Below, piece by piece: positions 52,843-55,008 of a DNA stretch of 64,000 nucleotides. A program made the translations under genes and the position numbers. The notes under the pieces were generated by a model. That model had not been told where the DNA came from. It was given only the letters and a program-made list of their open reading frames with translations, and made no database searches. Source of the DNA: a methanogenic archaeon ISO4-H5 (GTDB lineage: Archaea; Thermoplasmatota; Thermoplasmata; Methanomassiliicoccales; Methanomethylophilaceae); assembly GCA_001560915.1 (NCBI GenBank), contig CP014214.1, forward strand, positions 1,240,001 to 1,304,000, in the 5' to 3' direction. How positions within the stretch are numbered: position 1 is the first letter of the stretch; every line of letters begins with the position of its first letter.

Positions 52843-52985
52843 AATTCGAAAAACTTGCTCACCCTTTTTAATGATGATGTTGGATGCATTTTTTCGACCC
52901 TGTAATCCGTACGGAATACAGCCTTAACGGGGAGATTCGTCCGCGGGCAAAAATCAAAAAGGGAAAACACATCGGGAAAGATGGA

Positions 52986-53429
52986 ATGAGTTATATAGTA
53001 GAGTTTGAGGGGACTTTGACGGATGCCGACGGATGCTTCGAGAAAGTGTTCTCCGAGGCCTTCGCACAGTTCAGCATCCCCTTCGAAAGGGAACGGCTGA
53101 AGGACTACGTCTCGCTTCCCCTGGACAAACTATTCTCCAAATACTATACAGGATGCACCTGCCGTTTCCGCGATTTCATGACCATGTACATCGGACTCTT
53201 CGACAGTCATTTCGGTCTCATCACTCCCATGGAAGAGAATCTTTCGAGGGTGAGAGAACTCATCCGCTCGGGAGCGAATGTTTCGGTCATCTCCGGTTGC
53301 TATGAGATGTACGTCAGAAGGTTCCTGGAGGAACACGGTATCTCTGTACAGCCTGTTGTATCCACGGATAGGACCAACGGGGGCATCCCCGACGGAACGA
53401 TGCTCTCTATGTGCCTGTCGGACCTTCAT
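52986..53429 (+). pseudogene. HAD-like phosphatase gene, 5' part (split by mobile element)
   Basis: 148 codons up to the insertion. The start MSYIVEFEGTLTDADGCFEK matches HAD motif I, except that the nucleophile pair D-x-D is E-F-E, so catalysis is doubtful even before disruption. ANVSVISGCYEMYVRRFLEE is motif II. The element entered after the codons for LSDLH; without it the frame continues SEPGEAVLISSDTRLNGIAS in the 3' part (54925-55008) and ends with TAA. At present translation would run into the element and stop after about 31 foreign residues. Confidence 0.8.
53422..53429. repeat. Target-site duplication, left copy
   Basis: ACCTTCAT directly precedes the left terminal repeat; an identical ACCTTCAT follows the right terminal repeat at 54917-54924. 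Confidence 0.85.
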
Positions 53430-53455
53430 GGTACTATAACGAAGTGTGTGGAAAT
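53430..53455 (+). repeat. Left terminal inverted repeat
   Basis: Begins GGTACTATAACGAAGTGTGT and ends GGAAAT. It matches the right repeat at 54891-54916 in 25 of 26 positions. Confidence 0.85.
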
Positions 53456-53489
53456 GAATTCTCACACCCGTCACATTTTTTCGCACTTC

Positions 53490-53499
53490 GGCTTTCGCC
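53490..53499 (-). other. GGC-GAAA-GCC hairpin at the tnpB 3' end
   Basis: A small GNRA-loop hairpin 9 nt past the tnpB stop on the minus strand, in the 78 nt between the stop and the element end. In TnpB systems the guide RNA covers the tnpB 3' end and the element end, so this could be part of an omegaRNA scaffold. Confidence 0.3.
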
Positions 53500-53507
53500 T
53501 CGGTAAT

Positions 53508-54773
53508 TCAGGCAATCGGTGACGTGCCAAGGATGTCGAACCCCATCCCGCGTCTAAGTACGTTCTCGCATGCGTTGTCGTCACGGTGTATGGTGAAACC
53601 GCAGAATCTGCAACGGAAGGTCTCTTCGCTGAACGGATCGTTCAGCATTCCGCATTTGGTGCAGATCCTGCTCGTGTAGGCGGGATTCACTGGAACTATC
53701 TCAGACCCGGTTTCTTCCCCCTTGTATCTGAGCAGTCTCATGAACGTCCCCGCGCTCGCATCGCGGAACAGTTTCCTTGATTCTTTGTTGTCCTGTAAAT
53801 CAATAAGATCTCTGACGGAAAGGTCCTCCACGAAGATCTTCGTGCGATTCTGAGCTATCGATCTCGTAGCTTTCTGCAGAAGATCGTTCTTGCTGTCTCC
53901 GATCCTCTTAAGGAGATGATTCATATGACCCAGATACTTCCTGCGTTCCTCTGAACCCTTCTCCGTCTTCGATATCTTGCGTTGGATTCTGGCAAGTTTC
54001 TTCTCATTCTTCCTCATGGTACGGTGGTTCTCCACCACCGTACCGTCGGTGAGTGTGGCCACTCTCCTGGCACCCAGGTCAAGACCAACAGGATCAGGAG
54101 TTTCCGCATCCATGTACCATGTACGGTTATCAGGTATCTCGAGACATTCGCAGAAGATCGTGATGTACCATTTGTTGCTCTTACCCATCTTCTTCCTGGA
54201 GATGACGGCCTGTTTCATGCAATCAGTGGGAACTCTCTTGATGATGCTATTGTCAGAGGATCTGACCCAGCCTACGCCTCCGAGGAACATACGCGGTTTC
54301 TTTCCCTTGAACAATCCTTGGGTATCCAAGCGATATTTATTGTTCTCTGTATATGTGAACGAGTCGTATCTCCCGTCAGTCCTGAATCTGGGTTTTCCTG
54401 CGGAAGAATCATCTATCAAAGAATCAAACCAGCGTTGATATGCTTTGTATATCCTGCAGCCGACTTCTCTGACTGCAGAACCGTAAGCATCCCGTCTCCA
54501 GAGGTTGATCTCCCTGAACTCTCCTGCTTTTGCGGTGAGTTCGAATTCCGATGGGAACCTCGGAAGAGGGTTGGTATCCGTTTCGTACAGCGAAGCATCA
54601 TCGCCCTCTTGTACACCCATGCTCTCGCGCCATTCATCGTACCTTTTAGTGAAGTCCCTGCAGTATTCGTTGAGATCGTTATAGGTGGCTCTGCAGGCGT
54701 GCAGGGTCAGTAACATCCTCTTCTCCTGTTCGGGTTTAGGGAAGAGCTGGATCTTCACGGTACGATACGGCAT
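53508..54773 (-). CDS. tnpB: TnpB RNA-guided nuclease-family protein
   Basis: 421 residues. RuvC-I Asp232 in PVGLDLGARRVATL, RuvC-II Glu316 in KIFVEDLSVRDL and RuvC-III Asp398 in IHRDDNACENV are all present. The zinc finger has Cys371, Cys374, Cys388 and Cys391 (CTKCG, CRFCG). N-terminal RTVKIQLFPKPEQEK is typical of OrfB. Nothing suggests inactivation. TnpB proteins are ancestors of Cas12 and cut DNA using an omegaRNA made from the element end. Start at the ATG at 54773: TATA at 54796-54802 is about 26 nt upstream (leaderless); an ATG 3 nt earlier is possible. Confidence 0.93.
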   Translation of the reverse strand: MPYRTVKIQLFPKPEQEKRMLLTLHACRATYNDLNEYCRDFTKRYDEWRESMGVQEGDDASLYETDTNPLPRFPSEFELTAKAGEFREINLWRRDAYGSAVREVGCRIYKAYQRWFDSLIDDSSAGKPRFRTDGRYDSFTYTENNKYRLDTQGLFKGKKPRMFLGGVGWVRSSDNSIIKRVPTDCMKQAVISRKKMGKSNKWYITIFCECLEIPDNRTWYMDAETPDPVGLDLGARRVATLTDGTVVENHRTMRKNEKKLARIQRKISKTEKGSEERRKYLGHMNHLLKRIGDSKNDLLQKATRSIAQNRTKIFVEDLSVRDLIDLQDNKESRKLFRDASAGTFMRLLRYKGEETGSEIVPVNPAYTSRICTKCGMLNDPFSEETFRCRFCGFTIHRDDNACENVLRRGMGFDILGTSPIA

Positions 54774-54798
54774 CATTCTAGATACGTTGTTTCGTGGT

Positions 54799-54851
54799 AT
54801 ATAAAGTTCACAGGGGGAGGTCGCCGAAAGTACCGAAAGTGACCGAAACTG
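54799..54851 (-). repeat. Promoter module, copy B (upstream of tnpB)
   Basis: Opposite-strand copy of the module at 49996-50039. On the minus strand: CAGTTTCGGTCACTTTCGG, an additional TACTTTCGG unit, then CGACCTCCCCCTGTGAAC and the TATA box. The two copies point to different genes with the same spacing to the start codon. Confidence 0.75.
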
Positions 54852-54890
54852 AAATCTGATTGACCAAAAGACAACTCAATCAACCACTCG

Positions 54891-54916
54891 ATTTCCACAC
54901 ACTTCGTTATAGAACC
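54891..54916 (-). repeat. Right terminal inverted repeat
   Basis: Minus-strand reading begins GGTTCTATAACGAAGTGTGT and ends GGAAAT; one mismatch to the left repeat. Confidence 0.85.
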
Positions 54917-54924
54917 ACCTTCAT
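54917..54924. repeat. Target-site duplication, right copy
   Basis: ACCTTCAT, identical to 53422-53429, in the same orientation. Confidence 0.85.
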
Positions 54925-55008
54925 TCCGAACCCGGAGAAGCGGTACTGATCAGTTCCGATACACGTCTGAATGGCATTGCTTCAGAGATGGGAATCGGAA
55001 CCGATTAA
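54925..55008 (+). pseudogene. HAD-like phosphatase gene, 3' part
   Basis: 27 codons plus TAA that continue exactly the frame of the 5' part: SEPGEAVLISSDTRLNGIAS then EMGIGTD. AVLISSDTRLNGIASEMGI resembles HAD motif IV (usually GDSxxD...A..AG). Now separated from its start by the element and not expressed on its own. Confidence 0.78.

Follow-up and report, generated by a model that had tools for sequence, protein, structure and literature searches.

A tnpB gene in a transposase-less element with ISL3-like ends in the archaeon ISO4-H5

TnpB is a DNA-cutting enzyme and an ancestor-type relative of CRISPR-Cas12. Its presumed way of working is tied to the rules of the IS200/IS605 and IS607 elements, which lack terminal inverted repeats (TIRs) and use a fixed target motif or dinucleotide. 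How, then, does a tnpB gene come to lie between TIRs and target-site duplications (TSDs), with no transposase next to it? The question is raised by an element in a 64,000-nt stretch of the chromosome of the methanogenic archaeon ISO4-H5 (contig CP014214.1, 1,240,001-1,304,000; hereafter the window). Coordinates between 52,884 and 55,008 are positions in this window. The element belongs to a family with several copies on the chromosome, and in a relative nearly the same ends enclose an ISL3-family transposase. We consider it probable that this is a non-autonomous ISL3-type element that carries tnpB, is moved in trans, and benefits from RNA-guided retention through an omega-RNA formed at its right end (RE). 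In the papers that we found, prokaryotic TnpB is placed in IS200/IS605 and IS607 elements, and carriers with TIRs or DDE transposases are described only for eukaryotic or viral Fanzors (PMC3627910, PMC10711439, PMC9956272).

A tnpB gene between inverted repeats and target duplications

The window element is 1,487 bp long (53430-54916). Perfect 8-bp direct repeats flank its 26-bp TIRs, which are identical at 25 of 26 positions, and its single gene is an intact tnpB on the minus strand. We examined the open reading frames inside the element and found no transposase gene among them. Its features, and the gene in which it lies, are as follows.

53422-53429: first TSD copy, 8 bp, ACCTTCAT
53430-53455: RE TIR, downstream of tnpB; 10 such ends in the genome
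53435-53475, minus strand: RE hairpin made of the TIR and the adjacent inner arm, the predicted 3' hairpin of the omega-RNA (minimum free energy -14.5, z -2.7 in this copy)
53482-53560, minus strand: conserved 3' end of tnpB and the hairpin that follows it, GAGGCGAAAGCCGAAGTGC, probably omega-RNA scaffold; alike among copies
53508-54776, minus strand: tnpB, 422-aa RNA-guided nuclease with the RuvC DED residues and four zinc Cys intact
54796-54806, minus strand: putative archaeal TATA box, CTTTATATACC, about 26 nt 5' of the tnpB ATG
54891-54916: left-end (LE) TIR, upstream of tnpB, without hairpin
54917-54924: second TSD copy, 8 bp, ACCTTCAT
52884-53429, plus strand: 5' part of a split HAD-like phosphatase gene (PF13419, E = 1.9e-6); the remainder is at 54925-55008

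These repeats are not due to chance. Matches to the TIRs were absent from 100 dinucleotide shuffles of the window (expected 0.00), and the TIR pattern retrieved 10 ends (five elements) in the genome, against none for the reversed control pattern. We also scored TIRs together with TSDs, using 166 mismatched pairings of left and right ends as a null. The null reached 11 at most, with no pairing at 13 or above, and the relatives of the window element scored 14-20. A sequence-only reading of the locus had proposed the 26-bp TIRs and the 8-bp repeats, and both are borne out by the coordinates, the shuffles and the multiple copies of the ends. The insertion splits the HAD-phosphatase gene: removal of the element and one repeat gives one continuous reading frame, and the orthologue in another genome (G022, 53% identity) is uninterrupted, with an alignment that runs straight over the junction.

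On the archaeal chromosome (1.94 Mb), the family comprises six tnpB elements with TIRs at their ends, listed here by chromosome position.

269810-271297: TSD CGTATTTG
708544-710030: TSD GTATCTA, 7 bp only
956640-958127: no direct repeat at the borders
1293430-1294916: the window element, TSD ACCTTCAT
1881527-1883010: TSD GTTACTCG; both ends of another type, GGTTCTTTGACGAATTGAGTGG
1890197-1893626: TSD GGTCACTT; group II intron inside

Five copies are 88-93% alike in DNA, and the TnpB of the sixth is 94% identical to that of the window copy. The window TIR pattern is shared by five copies, and the sixth has variant ends with its own 8-bp repeat. A copy in another genome (G021) has one end of the window type and the other of the GGTTCTTTGACGAATTGAGTGG type. 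Together with the copy at 1881527, in which both ends are of the latter type, this suggests that ends have been exchanged as units. In one tnpB copy (L012, 1998-5427), the inserted intron sequence encodes a reverse transcriptase of the group II type (RVT_1, GIIM) and lies antisense to tnpB.

The relatives that bear names in the collections are Thermoplasmata and methanogenic archaea; no viral contig carried this TnpB or these ends. The combination of TIRs and 8-bp duplications around tnpB recurs in three other genomes, i.e. G021, G016 (two copies, about 35% TnpB identity) and G090 (where some copies have 7-bp or imperfect repeats). In a further genome (G024; contigs C23, C48, C51 and C53), GGCTCTTTGAGAATTTGAGTGG ends lie at contig edges and probably belong to an unassembled repeated element of the window type.

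The protein itself is a conventional TnpB. It matches PF07282 (E = 1.7e-17) and PF01385 (E = 6.4e-15), and passes the NCBIfam guided_TnpB model (E = 8e-59; 199.8 bits for a cut-off of 100). The RuvC residues D233, E317 and D399 and the zinc ligands C372, C375, C389 and C392 are invariant among 19 homologues; this bears out the earlier proposal of a TnpB with all RuvC acids and four zinc Cys. Profile comparison favours ISDra2 TnpB (E = 3e-60) over the Fanzor2 structure (E = 1e-29). The ISDra2 TnpB-omegaRNA-DNA complex is the first match of the AlphaFold model (E = 2e-20), and ISDra2 TnpB is among the solved structures nearest by sequence and fold.

ISL3-like ends and probable movement in trans

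A search for the same ends around a transposase succeeded in a genome from another genus of the same family (G033). There, GGTTCTCTAACGAAGTGTGTGGA ends, nearly identical to the window TIRs, surround an intact ISL3-family DDE transposase (L055, 2918-4273; 8-bp TSD CTAACCAT). This 415-aa protein scores 246 bits against NCBIfam ISL3 (cut-off 180) and matches PF01610 (E = 1e-44). Elsewhere in the order, too, ISL3 elements end in this style (GGTTCTCTTTCATTTTGAGT, GGTCCTATTCTGTTTTGTGT) and are flanked by 8-bp duplications. The window element shares with the ISL3 family a TIR that begins with GG and a duplication of 8 bp; it differs in having tnpB instead of the transposase and a hairpin at one end only. 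Since there is no transposase inside, it is a non-autonomous relative of ISL3 by its ends, not an ISL3 insertion sequence. The G033 element hence supports the sequence-only proposal of a non-autonomous DDE-type element that captured TnpB. Among the ISL3 loci examined, none had the ISL3 transposase and tnpB within one element.

An ISL3-family transposase acting in trans would recognise the GGTTCTaTAACGAAGTGTGTGG ends and insert the element with 8-bp target duplications. In G090, two TIRs joined into a palindrome of 43 bp (L193) have an 8-bp duplication of their own, AAATTCAT, which fits TIR-directed mobilisation in trans. A second such 43-bp palindrome occurs at L206. Miniature inverted-repeat transposable elements, e.g. 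in Haloquadratum, are moved in trans through ends common to an autonomous transposon (PMC3119063). The window element resembles them in this respect, but bears an RNA-guided nuclease that is under selection.

Could the element instead derive from IS200/IS605 or IS607, with TIRs and duplications being incidental? By sequence, its TnpB falls into the ISDra2 (IS605) type, with the same nuclease family and domain order and an RNA predicted at the RE. We nevertheless find this origin highly improbable. TIRs with 8-bp duplications surround independent copies, against 0 of 166 null pairings, and the ISL3 element has nearly the same ends. IS200/IS605 elements have a Y1 transposase (TnpA) and neither TIRs nor target duplications; the window element has both kinds of repeat, no Y1 TnpA, and no clear fixed target motif (TAM) at its left border. 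The Y1 transposase (PF01797) is absent from the window genome, where the same search matched in control genomes, and is present in only 4 of the 147 genomes of the order. No copy has IS605 borders or an adjacent TnpA, and the relatives keep their TIRs and duplications. In IS607, the RNA boundary of TnpB is adapted to the cutting rules of the transposase (PMC10711439), a likeness that may extend to the window element; the latter has TIRs and TSDs and, within its single-gene interior, to which the search was limited, no serine recombinase.

A predicted right-end hairpin and proposed RNA-guided retention

The two TIRs are alike in sequence, but only one of them is predicted to fold. In the ISL3-type group, the TIR pairs with the adjacent inner arm in 24 of 24 REs and in none of 20 LEs (mean z of -2.67, with 18 of 24 below -2, vs. 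0.16). This predicted hairpin, which abuts the element boundary at the RE and not at the LE, is new here. It stops about 5 nt short of the border; in the right-end RNA (reRNA) of IS200/IS605, the scaffold ends and the guide starts at the corresponding position (PMC10711439). Subfamilies differ in the arm sequence and yet retain the pairing, which is what one would expect of a TIR that acts as 3' hairpin in the omega-RNA. We infer from these folds that the RE hairpin is the last omega-RNA hairpin, borrowed from the TIR. Within the window group, 92% of cells are paired in this structure; when it is slid, the share never exceeds 62%. No pair in this group changed on both sides, hence the support comes from pairing kept across subfamilies rather than from covariation within the group. 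In G016, both REs have the hairpin with non-significant z.

If this is correct, tnpB would be driven by the element's own promoter, and TnpB and the omega-RNA would come from a single transcript. The TATA-like CTTTATATACC is kept among the window-group copies, except at its 3' edge, and the mRNA is probably leaderless. The omega-RNA would cover the 3' end of tnpB and continue into the RE, with the TIR and the inner arm forming the last scaffold hairpin, and its guide would be read from the flank, i.e. the duplication and the DNA downstream. TnpB would cut those copies of the chromosome in which the element is missing, and repair of the cut would copy it back. The nuclease would thereby favour the persistence of an element unable to move itself.

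The idea of the sequence-only reading that cutting of empty sites may help to retain the element has three supports only: the RE hairpin, the fact that tnpB is under purifying selection, and a target bias that is weak and specific to orientation. Between copies, the ratio of nonsynonymous to synonymous divergence (dN/dS) is 0.09-0.16 at a dS of 0.23-0.65; judged by these rates, the copies are under strong purifying selection and TnpB was kept working across many duplications. As to the bias, a guide taken from the flank implies that the TAM must sit just before the left-side duplication. An 'AA' spans the left duplication border in 13 of 20 LEs vs. 3 of 25 REs (in a permutation test, p = 0.004 for the sum of 16 positions and p = 0.14 for the best single one). 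G090 contributes most of it, with A at -1 in 8/9 LEs vs. 2/12 REs and A as the first duplication base in 9/9 LEs vs. 4/12 REs. Since the bias was picked after looking and comes mostly from this genome, it is only suggestive.

Several observations weigh against the retention model. The window group has no fixed TAM before the duplication, and empty-site cutting at each locus is therefore not assured. No ISL3 transposase with exactly the ends of the window element was found in the window genome: its two identical ISL3 copies have other TIRs, and the present source of transposase in trans is thus missing or lost. The element has no match to an omega-RNA in Rfam, the AlphaFold model has a predicted TM-score (pTM) of 0.65, and its global TM-scores to solved structures are low. 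Finally, the RE hairpin might serve a different purpose, for example as a transcription terminator or a feature used by the transposase. The window-group hairpin, read from outside, is indeed followed by a run of T. Other subfamilies keep the hairpin without the T run, and it is absent from LEs and from most ends of transposase-only ISL3 elements (of 12 ends, two have z < -2, and just one of these pairs its TIR). A role outside the omega-RNA is thus a doubtful proposition, if one to be taken seriously.

The lack of a fixed TAM and the freely varying insertion sites of the window group also agree with a simpler account, in which an ISL3-type element took up tnpB as a passive passenger, without benefit, and its copies are intact merely because they are young. 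The divergence between copies speaks against such youth, given the low dN/dS at the dS values above. Moreover, the RE hairpin has been retained despite sequence change between subfamilies, and the association of TnpB with its ends forms a clade over several species. We therefore judge a mere passenger unlikely, and prefer the non-autonomous element with RNA-guided retention.

Other TnpB carriers in the order and known systems

The window genome encodes 18 TnpBs: the six family copies, L247, and eleven in elements with CTTGAG-/CTTAAG-type (IS1634-like) ends (L239-L246, L248, L250 and L249). Such a number of diverse TnpBs per genome, with purifying selection, might be seen as the mark of a protein repurposed for RNA-guided repression or defence, which also helps the host and whose gene the DDE ends merely spread. 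Yet the catalytic residues are intact, which makes a nuclease-dead repressor unlikely, and the window copy disrupts a host gene; we regard repurposing as improbable.

The tnpB of L247 (2552-3843) has GGCTTTGGGGAAATCATCGAA ends, TIRs GGCTTTGGGGAAATCATCGAATTC and GGCTTTGAGGAAATCATGGATTTC and the 8-bp duplication GCTTCCGT. This third type of end also occurs in G059. Several CTTGAG-/CTTAAG-type elements have direct repeats of 5-6 bp (e.g. TTATGA, TTAAAA, TTTTAC, TTTAAT), read by eye and with no null. One element, L249 (G000 C1:352427-356071), has a 519-aa DDE transposase followed by tnpB, with imperfect inverted ends and TTCCGCAT repeats. The transposase matches DDE_Tnp_1 (E = 7e-8), and IS1634 is its best NCBIfam family, yet below the cut-off. 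With both genes inside, L249 resembles an autonomous DDE transposon that carries tnpB, and hence this genome does contain an element in which a DDE transposase and tnpB occur together. The other end types show the RE hairpin too; the statistics are weaker for some copies, and a single LE (L248) folds as well.

In the TnpB tree, each of the three end types corresponds to one clade and this association spans several species; the number of captures that the tree implies depends on its root. We hold it about evenly balanced whether TnpB was captured separately in Methanomassiliicoccales by at least two DDE types (ISL3 and IS1634-like), the TIR each time providing the omega-RNA hairpin with its 3' arm. 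If so, RNA-guided retention would be a transposase-independent module that any cut-and-paste element could use, and would mirror in prokaryotes the way in which Fanzors spread.

TnpB relatives in TIR or DDE elements are already known from Fanzors; what appears to be new is the capture of TnpB by DDE transposons in prokaryotes. Fanzor1 rides eukaryotic DDE transposons (Mariner, IS4, Sola, MuDr; PMC3627910), and Fanzor2 was captured by TIR elements (PMC10711439). As in the window element, these nucleases lie in elements with TIRs and TSDs, often without a transposase, and TSDs of 8 bp are known from one Fanzor element, of the IS4 type. Fanzor1 hosts are eukaryotes or their viruses; the window element lies in an archaeal chromosome with archaeal relatives, and further differs by its canonical ISDra2-type TnpB, the ISL3- and IS1634-like ends across the genome and the predicted RE TIR hairpin. 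Among the open-access papers searched, none linked Methanomassiliicoccales to TnpB, and papers naming both TnpB and ISL3 were, as far as their titles and abstracts tell, strain, plasmid or resistance reports. Within these open-access papers, the architecture is undescribed, as the sequence-only reading had supposed.

A TnpB lineage maintained by selection in DDE transposons shows that the nuclease can be separated from the transposition rules of IS200/IS605 and IS607, and opens the retention model to tests with another type of transposase. It would be a prokaryotic parallel to Fanzor capture if the transposon end is indeed part of the predicted guide RNA. These elements are also a source of small nucleases from archaea, with an RNA that may terminate in an exchangeable hairpin.

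Two further observations concern other tnpB loci. An Actinomycetes tnpB (L169) has GGTAGTGGGTCAYTTTGA inverted ends and the near-perfect repeats CAAAATAG and CAAAATAA, possibly an independent capture. In-frame TAG codons occur within the tnpB genes of L030, L041, L045 and L033, in a group known to use pyrrolysine.
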